NCBI GenBank assembly: GCA_016928995.1
Contig: JAFGJS010000009.1
Location: 1 to 10,006, forward strand
DNA length: 10,006 nt
Direction: 5' to 3'
DNA from: Candidatus Sumerlaeota bacterium
GTDB lineage: Bacteria > Sumerlaeota > Sumerlaeia > JAFGJS01
Each line of letters begins with the position of its first letter. Positions within the stretch are counted from its first letter, which is position 1. Shown here piece after piece: positions 537 through 9,625 of the stretch. The position numbers were made by a program, and so were the translations under genes. The notes beneath the pieces were generated by a model. That model had not been told where the DNA came from. It saw nothing but the letters and a program-made list of their open reading frames with translations, and did not search any database.

Positions 537-1715
537 TCATGGAGTGTTTTTAATCAGGTAGATTTCGCCCGCGCTCGCGAATGGCAAGCCTTGCTGTTCG
601 GAGAGCGAGCGCAGCATCACATAACGGCCCTTGACCGGCGCAAATTCAACCACTGTCGCTTCCAGTCCGTCCGTGAAAGCCCCCTTGGAAGCGGGAGTGT
701 TGAAATGATCCGGGGCGCCGCTGACAAAAAATTCATACTCGGCGATGGTTCCATTCAACTGCCCGTTGGTTCGCGGCTGATATTGAAATCCCTTGATTTC
801 GTACGTCTGACCCAGATCGATCACCAGTTCATGCGGGTGTTCGGGTTGAGCCTCATTCCATTGGGTGTGCCAGGTCGTGTTCGGATCGCCATCGAAGGCA
901 TTCATCGCCACATCGCCGTCGTATGTGGATTCGCTGTCCACGCGCACGAGTTTCCAGCCGTCCTTCGCAATGTTGTTCTCCGGCGCCGGGGCTGGTTCGG
1001 GCGCAGGAGGCGCCATATCCCATTCTGGATTGGTCATGGCTCCGCCGCCGCCGCCCATGCTTTGCTCCATAACCGTTCCCAGCACGCCGATGATGTCTTG
1101 CAAACTTTCGGGATTGAAATCCAGATTGCCGGATAGCCCCTTGCCCACTAACGGCCCGACGATCTTACCGATTTTTTCCGGCTGGATATCGGCGGCCACG
1201 TTGACAATCACCATCTCGTCGCCATCCGCAACGATGACCGCGCCGCCTTGAATCGAAGACTCATTTGCTCTGAGCAGCACATTCACATTATCCTCAGGTA
1301 CTCGAACGATCGTCTGCCAGCCGCCGGAGATCAGTCCGTTGACGAATTTCACCGCGTTGGCCTGGGATTGCTCCACTAATTCATCGGGGATGGAAAAGAC
1401 GCGCACTTGCACGATCTGCACTTTGGAGGTGTCGACCAAGTCATACACTGATTTCAACACTTCAGCCTGGCTCGCATCTTCGGTTTCGATGTTGTTGATG
1501 ATCTCCAGCGTCGTGGATTTCATCAACAGCAGCAGCACGGGCGTCAGGTTGACCTCGACTTCCGGATTAATCGCCGGCAGCAATTCATTGCCGTCAATTT
1601 GAATGTAGCCGGGATGTTTGGTCACATCGGTTTGTTGCGACTCCTGCGCCGCGCCGGAAAAAGTCAACGTCACTAATAGTGTCGCCGCAAGGAGTTTGCT
1701 TGTGATTCTGTTCAT
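537..1715 (-). CDS. Secreted DUF4252-like protein with C-terminal F5/8 type C (discoidin) domain
   Basis: The product is 392 residues. Residues 1-23 form a Sec signal peptide (basic start, LLAATLLVTLTFSGAA core), so the protein is exported. Residues about 34-190 resemble the DUF4252 family: an HPGYIQ start, a VEVNL segment, QANAVKFVNGL, GGWQTIVRV and ending in DIQPEKIGKIVG. A Gly run (221-225) and a Pro/Ala linker (235-246) lead to residues about 253-388, which fit an F5/8 type C fold: YDGDVAMNAFDGDPNTTWHTQW, then LVIDLGQTYEIKGF, then EYEFFVS, then GRYVMLRS. Such domains usually bind sugars or cell surfaces. No catalytic motif is visible. The ATG at 1715 has a good GGGAGA site 8 bases upstream on the minus strand. 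The gene follows the M56 gene on the same strand after 204 bp, and the M56 C-terminus carries a related DUF4252-like domain. Role unknown; a secreted ligand, partner or decoy of the M56 receptor is inference only. Confidence 0.85.
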   Translation of the reverse strand: MNRITSKLLAATLLVTLTFSGAAQESQQTDVTKHPGYIQIDGNELLPAINPEVEVNLTPVLLLLMKSTTLEIINNIETEDASQAEVLKSVYDLVDTSKVQIVQVRVFSIPDELVEQSQANAVKFVNGLISGGWQTIVRVPEDNVNVLLRANESSIQGGAVIVADGDEMVIVNVAADIQPEKIGKIVGPLVGKGLSGNLDFNPESLQDIIGVLGTVMEQSMGGGGGAMTNPEWDMAPPAPEPAPAPENNIAKDGWKLVRVDSESTYDGDVAMNAFDGDPNTTWHTQWNEAQPEHPHELVIDLGQTYEIKGFQYQPRTNGQLNGTIAEYEFFVSGAPDHFNTPASKGAFTDGLEATVVEFAPVKGRYVMLRSLSEQQGLPFASAGEIYLIKNTP

Positions 1716-1919: not shown

Positions 1920-3617
1920 TTAATCCAATCCGAGATTTTTTTGCGCGATGCTTTTGATTTCCTGCCAGTCAAGATCGTCATTGCTGATCATGTAGAGCAG
2001 TTTGCCCAGTTTGCGTCCGAACTTCTGAACATCGATGTCGCCGTCAAGTTGGAAATGGACCAATTGTCCCTGTTCATATATCACGCCCAGCACTCCCGTG
2101 ACATGTTGTCCGTCGGATCGGATCATGAGCTCCACATTGCTGTCCGATGCGCGGAACAACGGCGTCCAGCCGGCGCGGCGCAGCTGTTGAATCGCGCGGC
2201 CGATTTCCGGCTGAACGCGCCCTTGGTCGCCGTCTGTCTGCAGCACCTTTACCCGCACTGAATGTACGCCATGGTTTTGAAAAATCTCCGCCAACTGAAC
2301 ATCATGGTTTTGCGCCACTGCATTTCCCACTGCGTTCAGCAACGCTTCATTTAAATTCAATTCAGAGATGAGCGGCATGTCTCGCGTGACTCTGGCAAAC
2401 GGATCATCCTGTTCAGCAGAGCTTGCGGCCGGAACGGCGTTGTCCTGCGTTTCGTTCATCATGGCGCTTCCAGCATCGACGACTGAAGCGGCTGGGGCAT
2501 CATTTTGCTTGGCTGACGCGATTTTTTTGGACTGCATCGCCGTGCCGATCATCGCCAGCGACAGGATGATCACGATCACGCTGGAGATCAGCCCTGTTGG
2601 ATTGAAGCGATGCGGATTAGGCACGCCAGCCAGGCGCCGCACGCGTTGCAGCAACGGTCCGTTCGTTGCGGCGATAGCGAGCGAGAAGCCCGCCTCCATC
2701 CGCATCTCCTCCAGCCGGGTAAGAGCCAGCGCGTATTCGCGCACGCTGTAACGCTGGCGGATGACGCAATCATCGCAGCAATGCTCCCGCTCTTTGCGGA
2801 TCACTTTCGACACCCACCACACGGCAGGATGGTAAAACAAGAGCGTCTCAATCAATGTCTGCAGCAGATTCCAGAGGAAATCATACCGGCGGATATGCGC
2901 CAGTTCATGCACCAGGATGGCCTCCAGCTGGGCTTGCGGCAATCCGCACAGCGCGCTCGCCGGCAGCAGGATCACCGGCTTGAAAATTCCGATGACCGAT
3001 GGGCTGTCCACCAGCGCCGATTCCAGCAGCCGCACGGTCCGCTGGACGCCCATTGCATCGCATAACCGGATAAAGATCGAATAGAGGGGTTCGCCAATCG
3101 GACGCACCTGCCGGCGCTTCAAACGCGAGATGCTGGCCAACGCGCCGATACGATAAAGCGAAAGCAACATCACGCCCAGGAACCAGGCGTATACGATCAT
3201 CGGCATAAGCGGCAGAAGCATGCCGCGAAGATTGTGTGTGAAATTATGTAGTGAAATTCCATGGCCGGATTCCGCCGTCATCGTTTGAACGCTCAATGCC
3301 TGCGGCGCCGACAGCGCAGCATGGCCGTTGTCCATAGACGGCGTCAGTTCAACGATTGCTTCCGGGGCGAATGCAAAACGCCAGTCGCTGGAATCCGCAT
3401 GATTCCAGCATACGCAGCAGGTGATCAATGGAAGCGCGGCCATCAGCAGCAACGCCGCCAGCGCTGCCAGATAACGTTTTTGCGCGGATGAATTTCGCAA
3501 CAGATATAACGCGCATTGCAATCCCGCCGCCACCAACAGTCCTTGCCAGACGAAATGCAGCAGCGTCCACCCCAGGTTGATCACTGCGGAATTGAGCCAC
3601 ACATTGAGACCATTCAT
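1920..3617 (-). CDS. BlaR1/MecR1-like M56 membrane metalloprotease with DUF4252-like sensor domain
   Basis: The product is 565 residues. Hydrophobic segments lie at about 17-38, 46-68, 133-155, 247-270 and 343-361. The M56 zinc-protease core carries HELAH (H237, E238, H241) and the downstream RKEREHCCDD stretch (274-283), where the third zinc ligand is probably E278. In BlaR1/MecR1 this protease faces the cytoplasm and is activated by an outer sensor, which leads to repressor inactivation. Here the region after the last membrane segment (about 362-565) has no penicillin-binding SxxK/KTG domain. After a low-complexity linker, residues about 405-560 resemble DUF4252. Residues 483-541 align without gaps to 132-190 of the secreted neighbour, sharing GW, R, NV, R, G, DI, K, G, G and L. 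The start overlaps the repressor stop as ATGA (3614-3617), with AAGGA 9 bases upstream, implying translational coupling. It is therefore unlikely to sense beta-lactams; the true signal is unknown. Confidence 0.9.
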   Translation of the reverse strand: MNGLNVWLNSAVINLGWTLLHFVWQGLLVAAGLQCALYLLRNSSAQKRYLAALAALLLMAALPLITCCVCWNHADSSDWRFAFAPEAIVELTPSMDNGHAALSAPQALSVQTMTAESGHGISLHNFTHNLRGMLLPLMPMIVYAWFLGVMLLSLYRIGALASISRLKRRQVRPIGEPLYSIFIRLCDAMGVQRTVRLLESALVDSPSVIGIFKPVILLPASALCGLPQAQLEAILVHELAHIRRYDFLWNLLQTLIETLLFYHPAVWWVSKVIRKEREHCCDDCVIRQRYSVREYALALTRLEEMRMEAGFSLAIAATNGPLLQRVRRLAGVPNPHRFNPTGLISSVIVIILSLAMIGTAMQSKKIASAKQNDAPAASVVDAGSAMMNETQDNAVPAASSAEQDDPFARVTRDMPLISELNLNEALLNAVGNAVAQNHDVQLAEIFQNHGVHSVRVKVLQTDGDQGRVQPEIGRAIQQLRRAGWTPLFRASDSNVELMIRSDGQHVTGVLGVIYEQGQLVHFQLDGDIDVQKFGRKLGKLLYMISNDDLDWQEIKSIAQKNLGLD

Positions 3618-4052: not shown

Positions 4053-4082
4053 ATGATATACGACGCGCTTCGTAGATGTCAA
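4053..4082 (-). promoter_or_regulatory. Sigma-70-type promoter of the blaI-like/M56 operon
   Basis: On the minus strand a perfect -35 hexamer, TTGACA (4082-4077), is followed after 16 bases by TATATC (4060-4055), or after 18 bases by TATCAT (4058-4053), as the -10. This puts the transcription start at about 4045-4048, some 37 bases before the repressor start codon. The spacer is occupied by an operator-like dyad. Confidence 0.65.
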
Positions 4083-4096
4083 CGAAAAAATTCGTA
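4059..4096. promoter_or_regulatory. Two operator-like dyads, putative BlaI-type sites
   Basis: Site 1 (4059-4074) is TACGA-CGCGCT-TCGTA, palindromic at 14 of 16 bases. It fills the promoter spacer. Site 2 (4081-4096) is AACGA-AAAAAT-TCGTA and begins at the upstream edge of the -35. The two centres are 22 bp apart, which puts them on the same face of the helix. The sequence TTCGTAGATGTC is also directly repeated at 4069-4080 and 4091-4102, with the same 22-bp period. BlaI-family dimers bind short TAC...GTA dyads, so the encoded repressor is the obvious candidate ligand. This is inference from position and symmetry. Confidence 0.55.
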
Positions 4097-4197
4097 GATG
4101 TCGTTTTTTACGTAACTCTCATGAATGAAAAGGTTTACATAAGACTGCGATGATTCAGCTATTTTTCAGTAAATAATCGCCAATACATGTCTCGAAT

Positions 4198-4357
4198 ATT
4201 GCATCTTATATTGCAGCATGGTCTGGAAAGCCTATGCAATCAATGCAGTATTCCTCCATTATTTCAGGAAAAATGCCATAAATATTATGAATTTTGCATC
4301 ATATATTACAGATGGTTTGAAGTCGTGTGCAATCACGAAGCATTCCTCCATTGTTTC
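4198..4357. repeat. Imperfect tandem duplication with TTGCA/TGCAA motifs
   Basis: Two related blocks lie at about 4198-4265 and 4293-4357. Each contains GCATC(T/A)TATATT(G/A)CAG (4201-4216 and 4296-4311), then an ATGGT..TG or GATGGTTTG stretch, then TGCAATCA (4235-4242 and 4328-4335), then ATTCCTCCATT (4250-4260 and 4342-4352), then a TTTC. The offset drifts from 95 to 92 bp. ATTGCAT (4198-4204) is inverted as ATGCAAT (4234-4240), and TTGCA/TGCAA recurs weakly in the second block and in GGTTGCAATCC (4361-4371). The 494 bp between the repressor and the GH115 gene contain no credible coding frame. The block may be a regulatory region for the GH115 gene or a decaying duplication. Confidence 0.55.
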
Positions 4358-4402
4358 TTAGGTTGCAATCCCAGCTGGCCTCGGCACGCGTCAAGGACGC
4401 TG

Positions 4403-7402: not shown

Positions 7403-7975
7403 ATGAATCAGCAAATCCATCTTGTGCGGCGGTTTCAATGCGGCGACCGCGCCGCGTTTGAAGAGTTGCTTCGTAATGAAGCGCCGCGATTGCTGAATTT
7501 TGTCCGGAAGCACGTCCACACCGAAGATATGGCTCAAGATTTCTTTCAGGAAATCTGCATCCGTGTCTGGCGTTTTCGCGAGCAGTTGAGGGACGGCGAA
7601 AAATTTCATAGCTGGCTGTATCAGATTGCGCGCCGGACAATCATGGAATTCCTGCGCATGCGCGAATGGACCGCCGAAGTGGGCTTTTTTAGTCAAGACA
7701 AGTATCTCGAACAATTCATGGATGACGGCAAGGGGCCGCGCGAGGAGGCCCAGTTAAAAGAATTGCGAAAGTTGATCGACCGGGAAGTGTGCAATTTGGA
7801 CGATTCGTTTCGTCAGATTCTTGTTTTGCGCTACACCGCGAACTTGAATCTTCGTGAAATTTCGACAGTGTTGAATGTGCCATACGGCACAGTGTGTTTT
7901 CGCATGAGCCAGGCGGCTCAGCATCTGCGCAAGCGATTGAAGGCGCTGGGGGTGGACGTCAACTCTTTGCAGTAA
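7403..7975 (+). CDS. ECF-type RNA polymerase sigma-70 factor
   Basis: The product is 190 residues, typical of ECF sigma factors, which have only regions 2 and 4. Region 2 spans about residues 8-80: FEELLRNEAPRLLNFVRKHV, then the core-binding AQDFFQEICIRVWRF, then the -10 recognition segment FHSWLYQIARRTIMEFLR. Region 4 spans about 125-182: LDDSFRQILVLRYTANLNLREISTVLNVPYGTVCFRMSQAAQHLRKRL, a clear helix-turn-helix. It resembles the ECF group common in Rhodopirellula and Verrucomicrobium relatives. GGTGA at 7391-7395 serves as the ribosome binding site. The next gene starts 18 bp after its stop and encodes a FecR-type membrane protein, the likely partner that restrains or activates it. Its target promoters are not visible; the upstream GH115 gene is a plausible member of the regulon. 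Confidence 0.93.
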   Translation: MNQQIHLVRRFQCGDRAAFEELLRNEAPRLLNFVRKHVHTEDMAQDFFQEICIRVWRFREQLRDGEKFHSWLYQIARRTIMEFLRMREWTAEVGFFSQDKYLEQFMDDGKGPREEAQLKELRKLIDREVCNLDDSFRQILVLRYTANLNLREISTVLNVPYGTVCFRMSQAAQHLRKRLKALGVDVNSLQ

Positions 7976-7993
7976 GAGAGCGGGTGATTGGTT

Positions 7994-9625
7994 ATGAGAA
8001 AGAATAATGACGACATCATTGCAAAGTTGATGGACCGGGATGCGGATCCGGATGAGCTTTTATCTTTATCTTCAGCGGAAGATCCGGAGCTTGGTCTGCC
8101 GGGCTTTTACGAACTGTCGAAGTGGCTGGAACAAGAGCAAAAGCATGACGAACGTTCGCTCGAAAGCGAAGCTTCGCGGCTGACGGACTATGCGTTGCAG
8201 GCAATCGATGTCGAGATTTTGCGAGAAAAGAACGAGGCTGGAAAAACATCGTGGAATTGGAGCGGATTGAAGTCCGCCTTCTTCTCGTGGATCATCGATT
8301 ACTTCGGCATGCTGCCGGCGCGCGATGAGATCGTGTTTCCCAATCGGTGTTCATCGCAAGAAAAATCCAGCCCTGCGAAATTCTGGCGCTATGCCGTGCC
8401 AATTGGTTTTGTGTTTATGATCATCTGTCTGGTCATGTTGCCTCCATCCGAGAAGCCATCTTTACCGTCGCCGGTCTATGAGCAGGTCAGGACGGATGAC
8501 GCTCCCTGCCTGATTGATTATTCCGGCAATGTGCGAATGGCGATGGCGGAACAAACGCAGATTCAGAAAATCAGCGACACATATACTGCGTTGCGTACGG
8601 GCAGCATCTGGCTCGATGTGCAAAAAAATGGCGCCGGCTTTGCCGTTTCAACCGATTATGGCGAAGTGCGCGTTTTAGGCACCAGCTTCGGCGTCAGCCG
8701 CCTGAGCGATCCAGAGCGATACATGATTGAGTGCGTCGAGGGTTCCGTGCAGATCACGGCCAACGAGATCAGCAGAACTTTGACTGCGGGAAATTATATC
8801 ATTCTGGATCGAGAAGGCCCACAGAAGCAGCAATTGCGAAGACAAGGACGCAAGAAGGCCTACTGGGTTCGAATCCTGGAGCAAAAGGAAGACGTCCAGA
8901 CGATTAACGGCCTTGTGGCGTATTGGGATATGGATAGCGTCGAAAATAATCAAGCCGGACTGATCGTCAAAGATCTGGGCTCGAATGGCTACCATGCGCA
9001 TGCTGACGCTGAAGATGGATACGAGCCTCATCTGGAGTTCTCTCCATCAGTCTATCCAGAGATCTTCGGCCAAGCCATACAAATCGAGAAGAAAGATAAA
9101 TCCTGGCTGACCATCCCTAATCCCGAAAAGCTCAGCGAGCTGAAGGATGAAGTGACGGTCATGGCATGGGTTCGCATCGATGAGAAAATCGACGGCAACA
9201 CATACCGGATTTTAGGGTGCTACGATGTGCTGTACGGCATGCACTTCGGCTTTGAGGGCTTGACGATCAATCTGGATATGGGCGGCAAGAACAGAGATGC
9301 GGCGGGATCTTCAAGCGAGGTGTTGGAGACTGGTCAATGGATTCATGTCGCGGCCTCGTGGTCGAAGGAAGAAAAGAAAATCCGATTTTATGCGAATGGC
9401 GAATTTATTGGCGAAGACAAGATCGACGTCGAGCGGCAATATAAGATTATGGATTGGTATATCGGCCGTAACCGGCGGTATATGAATGAAGAAATTAAAA
9501 CATCGAAGCCATATTATTTTCAGGGAATGATCGATGAGGTGCGTATTTATGATCGTGTTTTATCGGAAGATGAGATTCGTGAAATCAGCATGATCAGTTT
9601 ATGGGAAGAGGCTGTGCATGAATAA
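7994..9625 (+). CDS. FecR domain and LamG (concanavalin-like) transmembrane protein, putative sigma regulator
   Basis: The product is 543 residues from ATG 7994, which has GGGTGA 6 bases upstream; a TTG at 7988 would add two residues. Residues about 1-128 are charged and cytoplasmic, where a sigma-binding region would lie. A single membrane helix spans about 131-150 (YAVPIGFVFMIICLVML). Residues about 165-275 form the FecR region, with its hallmark FAVSTDYGEVRVLGTSFGV followed by VEGSVQIT and AGNYIIL. Residues about 305-535 are a LamG jelly-roll: GLVAYWDMD, VTVMAWVRI, WIHVAASWSKEEKKIRFYANGE and the closing FQGMIDEVRIYDRVLSEDEI. LamG domains commonly bind sugars, so it could report extracellular polysaccharide to the sigma factor. 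FecR/LamG fusions beside ECF genes are, to my knowledge, frequent in lentisphaeres, verrucomicrobia and planctomycetes. A true N-terminal anti-sigma zinc motif is not seen. Confidence 0.88.
   Translation: MRKNNDDIIAKLMDRDADPDELLSLSSAEDPELGLPGFYELSKWLEQEQKHDERSLESEASRLTDYALQAIDVEILREKNEAGKTSWNWSGLKSAFFSWIIDYFGMLPARDEIVFPNRCSSQEKSSPAKFWRYAVPIGFVFMIICLVMLPPSEKPSLPSPVYEQVRTDDAPCLIDYSGNVRMAMAEQTQIQKISDTYTALRTGSIWLDVQKNGAGFAVSTDYGEVRVLGTSFGVSRLSDPERYMIECVEGSVQITANEISRTLTAGNYIILDREGPQKQQLRRQGRKKAYWVRILEQKEDVQTINGLVAYWDMDSVENNQAGLIVKDLGSNGYHAHADAEDGYEPHLEFSPSVYPEIFGQAIQIEKKDKSWLTIPNPEKLSELKDEVTVMAWVRIDEKIDGNTYRILGCYDVLYGMHFGFEGLTINLDMGGKNRDAAGSSSEVLETGQWIHVAASWSKEEKKIRFYANGEFIGEDKIDVERQYKIMDWYIGRNRRYMNEEIKTSKPYYFQGMIDEVRIYDRVLSEDEIREISMISLWEEAVHE

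Follow-up and report, generated by a model that had tools for sequence, protein, structure and literature searches.

A probable BlaR1/BlaI-type proteolytic relay of Candidatus Sumerlaeota with a DUF4252 domain in the place of the penicillin-binding sensor

The window, i.e., the whole stretch of DNA that was analysed, is one complete contig of 10,006 bases in a Candidatus Sumerlaeota genome of 4.5 Mb in 161 contigs. A blaI-like repressor gene, a gene for an M56 membrane metalloprotease (the receptor), and a gene for a secreted protein lie on its minus strand. The ATG of the M56 gene overlaps the blaI stop as ATGA, and the secreted gene starts 204 bp past the M56 stop. The features were located as follows.

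537 to 1715, minus strand: secreted DUF4252 and F5/8 type C protein, 392 aa; the N-terminal segment MNRITSKLLAATLLVTLTFSGAAQ resembles a signal peptide
564 to 932, minus strand: F5/8 type C (CBM32-like) domain, residues 262-384 of the secreted protein; PF00754, E 1.9e-20
1161 to 1418, minus strand: DUF4252 domain of the secreted protein, residues 100-185; PF14060, 29.2-31.4 bits
1888 to 1913, minus strand: 8-bp hairpin AGACCGGC/GCCGGTCT directly after the M56 stop, without a T tract
1920 to 3617, minus strand: M56 receptor gene, BlaR1-type membrane metalloprotease with C-terminal DUF4252, 565 aa
2022 to 2378, minus strand: DUF4252 domain of the receptor, residues 414-532; PF14060, 32.7-36.4 bits
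2640 to 3371, minus strand: M56 peptidase region (HELAH 237-241, D246, E278xxxD282); PF05569, 119.8 bits
3614 to 4009, minus strand: blaI-like repressor, 131 aa; Pfam Penicillinase_R (PF03965), 93 bits against a gathering cut-off of 22.6
4053 to 4082, minus strand: sigma-70-like blaI promoter TTGACA-N18-TATCAT, 11 of 12 matches
4059 to 4074, no strand assigned: operator dyad 1, reading TACGAAGCGCGTCGTA on the minus strand, between -35 and -10 of the blaI promoter
4081 to 4096, no strand assigned: operator dyad 2, reading TACGAATTTTTTCGTT on the minus strand, overlapping the -35 TTGACA

The BlaR1 catalytic positions were all present in the receptor, i.e., H237, E238, H241, D246, E278, and D282, and these columns were identical in 106-107 of 107 aligned M56 proteins. 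The ExxxD motif (278-282) is placed 41 residues past the first His of HEXXH, a spacing as in BlaR1, and the Asp is at +9. The roles of HEXXH, Asp, and ExxxD in zinc binding and catalysis were assigned in the BlaR1 cryo-EM paper (PMC9834060). Four long hydrophobic helices (2-39, 45-74, 123-166, and 340-371) were found in the AF2 model, with pLDDT >90 across most of the core. BlaR1 structures were the top Foldseek matches of this model (8exp, E 1.2e-9), and VIA-align against BlaR1 8exs gave Z 19.7 and rmsd 5.9 over 249 aligned residues. As modelled, the receptor core has all the parts of a BlaR1-type gluzincin, four predicted membrane helices included, and its membrane orientation would be that of BlaR1. 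The description in the initial annotation, a BlaR1-like M56 protein with membrane segments, HELAH, and an ATGA-coupled BlaI, was borne out by PF05569, the conserved residues, and the AF2 helices. Besides the receptor gene, a profile search found no M56 gene that passed the Pfam cut-off in the genome of the window.

Staphylococci sense penicillin by a BlaR1-type protease relay. The M56 and BlaI families and a partial match to NCBIfam blaR1_generic would fit an ordinary beta-lactam sensor of this kind, i.e., a BlaR1/MecR1 whose sensor has diverged and which controls resistance to beta-lactams. However, the match of 93 bits is far under the BlaR1 cut-off of 400, and the outer domain is DUF4252. 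A Pfam scan of the protein found no penicillin-binding or transpeptidase domain, and no beta-lactamase or PBP gene was found within the window. A beta-lactam sensor is therefore extremely improbable. Because the defining penicillin-binding sensor is absent, the receptor is placed outside the beta-lactam sensor family, though it would work in the manner of BlaR1/BlaI.

The DUF4252 domain was recognized in the receptor and in its secreted neighbour, in both above the Pfam gathering cut-off of 23.9 bits (PF14060). In the receptor, it extends over approximately residues 411-540, beyond the 59 residues first noted. A non-circular HMM, i.e., trained only on DUF4252 domains from outside Sumerlaeota, detected the receptor with E 1e-13 and the secreted protein with E 1.6e-15, whereas the remaining M56 proteins of the test set, Sumerlaeota fusions aside, gave E of at least 0.85. 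BLASTP aligned the receptor with the secreted neighbour at E 6e-6. The homology of the two proteins rests on this BLASTP result, the Pfam scores, and the non-circular HMM. Thus, the DUF4252-like sensor and the same domain in the neighbour, both claimed initially, hold, and the profile searches placed DUF4252 in the two proteins, not unrelated families. The initial claim was drawn from a gapless pairing of receptor residues 483-541 with secreted residues 132-190. Its count, 14 identities in 59, is exact, but its significance as a raw count is not sustained, because the best gapless 59-mer of shuffled sequences averages 12.05 identities and reaches 16. The raw identity was therefore rejected as proof of homology.

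In the AF2 model, the outer part of the receptor formed an alpha/beta domain at residues 416-562 with pLDDT of approximately 65-85. This domain weakly matched DcrB 6e8a (Z 6.3, rmsd 4.3, 118 aligned), TP0453 (Z 5.4), SciW 6xrr (Z 5.3), and PsbP 2vu4 (Z 5.2). A Mog1/PsbP-like fold of DUF4252, suggested by these matches, was set aside since Z below 8 is no evidence. Searching PDB sequences with a five-domain DUF4252 profile gave no significant match.

DUF4252 was present in three of the 40 Sumerlaeota genomes searched, each of a different family, and BlaI with an M56-DUF4252 fusion was encoded in all three. The two comparators, G006 (record JAFGFN010000090) and G034 (record JANQSL010000070), are both metagenome-assembled. 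In G034 (L038), BlaI, M56-DUF4252, and secreted DUF4252 are placed in a row, and the secreted gene starts 9 bp after the receptor gene. In G006 (L035), BlaI is accompanied by an M56-DUF4252 protein fused to an extra C-terminal domain unknown to Pfam. The three-gene neighbourhood is therefore conserved in full in G034 and as BlaI and M56-DUF4252 in G006; the separate secreted DUF4252 protein was kept in two of the three genomes, i.e., the window's and G034. The Pfam DUF4252 scores were 27.9 bits in G006 and 42.6 bits for the secreted copy of G034. The receptor domain of G034 is very divergent; it was missed by Pfam at E 0.01 and detected by the non-circular HMM with E 7e-5, close to the detection limit. 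That binning error would yield one arrangement and one operator in three separate families is unlikely.

Phylogenetic trees placed the secreted copies, from the window and from G034, apart from the receptor copies (98/88 and 97/85 in one tree, 96/92 in another). Since the two kinds of copy form separate groups, both were present before the lineages of the window and G034 diverged, and the duplication of a signal module, as proposed initially, is consistent with the tree. The receptor copies are fast-evolving, and the G034 branch is very long. A putative single origin of all five Sumerlaeota domains was present in the best tree with support of 57/0.

Other elements were observed around these loci. 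Directly after the secreted DUF4252 gene of G034, a second BlaI/M56 pair was found (L038:8667-11522), and the outer part of its M56 protein is built from a long series of 'GNITL'-type strand repeats, resembling DUF4097/GIN domains. A DUF4252 protein fused to DUF2807 (GIN) was found in Bacteroidota (L115). Downstream of the G006 receptor (L035:6290-7111), an apparent partial copy carries an M56 tail and the same extra C-terminal domain, and had no Pfam match.

The BlaI of S. aureus is cut experimentally at Asn101|Phe102. In the alignment of the window BlaI to this protein (1sd4), the cut falls on Asn103|Ala104, which is the putative cleavage point. The P1' residue was Ala in 81 of the 104 environmental BlaI proteins collected, as against Phe in S. 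aureus. The residue aligned with P1' of receptor self-cleavage (Phe284) was mostly Leu, Met, Val, or Ile.

The tandem dyad, TACGAA-N4-TTCGTA, overlapped the blaI promoter in all three Sumerlaeota genomes with DUF4252. The combined 37-bp tandem pattern, with at most one mismatch, was found upstream of blaI in the window, G006, G034, and a further genome, G014, and the reversed-pattern control gave zero occurrences. A perfect single dyad was located within 250 bp upstream of 44 of the 104 BlaI genes (Acidobacteria, Planctomycetes, Verrucomicrobia, and others), whereas shuffled BlaI upstream regions reached a mean of only approximately 7.4 of the 12 dyad positions. Because tandem dyads lie over the promoter and are conserved in relatives, and because the dyad is widespread at BlaI genes, the predicted autoregulation of blaI is well supported by comparison. 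From these sequence patterns, TACGAA-N4-TTCGTA is likely a general operator of this BlaI group across phyla; our literature search found no paper linking BlaI to a TACGA operator. A wider regulon via single operators in the own genome was rejected, as six sites against seven for the reversed pattern are no excess.

The BlaI upstream regions examined for the dyad include those of L036-L114 and others. In G014 (L203:1077-1466), the BlaI gene under the same tandem operator has no adjacent M56 gene, and its neighbours resemble ExbD-, TonB-, and AraC-type genes. In the window, two imperfect tandem copies of an approximately 94-bp unit lie at 4183-4360, between blaI and a GH115 gene.

The divergence of the receptor domains and the very long G034 branch could be read as signs of a receptor in decay, to which the domain was fused by chance and which has no role in signalling. 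However, the catalytic residues, the operator, and the gene order were retained in three families, and the reading frames are intact. Chance fusion is therefore highly unlikely.

The usual context of DUF4252 was surveyed outside Sumerlaeota. Approximately 1,240 genome look-ups, among which some genomes recur, yielded 125 distinct DUF4252 loci. Their neighbour genes were called by profiles built for this analysis, and examples were checked against Pfam. At 117 of these loci, the same strand carried an ECF sigma or anti-sigma gene within approximately 1.5 kb; among the other eight, several were extra copies or short loci close to the end of a contig. At 68 of the 125, DUF4252 was encoded by at least two genes. 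A BlaI or M56 gene beside DUF4252 was found at none of the 125, and of 80 M56 loci collected by a similarity search, just two, both from Sumerlaeota, had DUF4252. The co-occurrence of BlaI, M56, and DUF4252 was thus seen in three of three Sumerlaeota genomes and at no locus surveyed elsewhere, and in all three Sumerlaeota loci BlaI/M56 holds the place of the ECF sigma/anti-sigma genes. The ECF gene of the window (7403-7975) is approximately 3.4 kb beyond blaI, on the opposite strand, beside a FecR-LamG gene. The stretch 7403-9625, an ECF sigma gene followed by the FecR-LamG membrane protein, is a sigma/regulator pair without DUF4252.

Expression of the ECF operons has been recorded in some species. 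In the parts of PMC10101095 that deal with these genes, P. gingivalis PG0985-0987 and PG0214-0218 (ECF sigma, putative anti-sigma, and DUF4252) rise together in one mutant and rise further under peroxide. The corresponding parts of PMC9045371 give a fall of PG0985-0987 in two sphingolipid mutants, and those of PMC11410844 describe P. bivia as down-regulating a sigma factor together with three DUF4252 genes. These parts of the three papers contain no statement on DUF4252 function, and the DUF4252 literature, as far as it was covered, consists mostly of expression tables.

In the secreted protein, the F5/8C domain model matched 2kd7 by VIA (Z 12.1, rmsd 3.3, 119 aligned). The model of the secreted protein was poor (pLDDT 57), and its structural matches were all taken up by this domain. 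A carbohydrate-binding-type domain stands beside DUF4252 here (F5/8C) and in another phylum (CBM9), which hints at a location at surface glycans. In that phylum, to which G077 belongs, the CBM9-like domain follows DUF4252 in L171, and DUF4252 was also found within reading frames of approximately 800-870 aa (L170, L171, L174-L176, and others).

The 71-nt hairpin stretch after the M56 stop had an MFE of -20.4 kcal/mol (z -3.0). A promoter-like site, TTCACA-N17-AATAAT, was found at 1901-1873, between the receptor and secreted genes, and no operator dyad of the secreted gene's own was found between the two genes. Because of the 204-bp gap, the hairpin, and the missing operator, co-regulation of the secreted gene with blaI is putative in the window. 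These features, the promoter-like site, and the glycan binding to which the F5/8C domain points would agree with an independently expressed duplicate that acts on extracellular glycans in a role apart from signalling, beside a relay that still has the DUF4252 sensor. However, the pair of G034, only 9 bp apart, is one operon. The separation of receptor and secreted copies across two genomes (96/92) means that both were kept since before the lineage split, and DUF4252 genes also stand in twos or more at the other loci, as counted above. Such an independent role of the secreted gene is rather unlikely.

It is reasonable to consider the locus a BlaR1/BlaI-type proteolytic relay, with the penicillin-binding sensor replaced by DUF4252, which autoregulates its operon; this reading is probable. 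In the resting state, BlaI would repress its own operon. The periplasmic DUF4252 domain would meet its signal and activate the cytoplasmic protease of the receptor, and the activated protease would cleave BlaI near Asn103|Ala104. We infer from these steps that signal binding triggers BlaI cleavage and that the operon is induced, i.e., blaI and the receptor gene would be derepressed, and so would the secreted DUF4252 gene, at least in G034 with its short gap. The secreted copy, which bears a glycan-binding-type domain in the window, may be an effector or a soluble competitor damping the signal. Homotypic recognition between the two copies and competition for one ligand, both proposed initially, are hypothetical. 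The signal itself would be an envelope perturbation, most likely envelope stress by analogy, because ECF-DUF4252 operons of P. gingivalis change in expression under oxidative stress and in sphingolipid mutants. Against the relay as a whole stand Ala in the place of Phe at the putative P1' position of BlaI, the strong divergence of the G034 receptor domain, the small share of Sumerlaeota genomes with DUF4252 (three of 40), the features that set the secreted gene of the window apart from the receptor gene, and the single operators of the genome, which show no excess.

In Sumerlaeota, the DUF4252 module appears to have been joined to another transmembrane relay. With the receptor fusion as the link, DUF4252 might act directly on transmembrane transducers, and we tentatively propose that it is a module that can move between transmembrane gene switches and serve as their extracytoplasmic input. 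The DUF4252 proteins of Bacteroidota and other phyla would then bind the periplasmic part of the anti-sigma factor and set sigma activity. Between soluble and receptor copies, there would be competition or pairing.

Many Bacteroidota, and other phyla as well, have DUF4252 genes, to which no function has been assigned, and the receptor fusion gives a first clue to their role. With the fusion at loci that lack the usual sigma/anti-sigma switch, a direct and testable proposal follows, in which the switch would respond to envelope stress and DUF4252 would be its outer sensor. For the BlaR1 protease family, which is known chiefly from antibiotic resistance, DUF4252 is a previously unrecorded input domain. 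With the common TACGAA-N4-TTCGTA operator, BlaI regulons could be mapped in many uncultured phyla.

The locus was compared with known systems. BlaR1/BlaI and MecR1/MecI of Staphylococcus and Bacillus have the same M56 gluzincin (HEXXH, ExxxD, and Asp at +9), a C-terminal outer domain preceded by four membrane helices, a coupled BlaI repressor, and dyad operators on the promoter. In contrast, the Sumerlaeota sensor is DUF4252 and not a class-D/PBP fold, the window has no beta-lactamase, the aligned cleavage point of BlaI is Asn|Ala and not Asn|Phe, and the operator is TACGAA-N4-TTCGTA. In Clostridium thermocellum, BlaI_0696 and BlaI_1845 control small autoregulatory regulons with sites for four protomers (PMC8457756); the Sumerlaeota locus would be alike in these points, but the half-site there is GTCTAT/GACTAT (PMC8457756) and here TACGAA. 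The ECF sigma/anti-sigma operons with one to three DUF4252 genes (P. gingivalis PG0985-PG0987 and PG0214-PG0218) likewise have extracytoplasmic DUF4252, often in at least two copies, beside a transmembrane regulatory pair. However, their switch is sigma/anti-sigma and not BlaI/M56, and their DUF4252 is on separate proteins, not fused to a receptor.

Environmental BlaI/M56 pairs share the M56/BlaI core, and the same dyad stands upstream of many of their BlaI genes. Their C-terminal domains are unrelated, i.e., HEAT, TPR, LRR, and others in Sumerlaeota and helical repeats in Acidobacteria, with no DUF4252 in the non-Sumerlaeota loci examined. Since another outer domain is common among M56 proteins, a sensor for something other than penicillin is not new per se, and the relay itself is not the undescribed signalling system that the initial annotation had supposed. 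The novelty lies, as far as the literature searched shows, in DUF4252 as the sensor, in its second copy, and in the exchange of the relay against the sigma/anti-sigma context.
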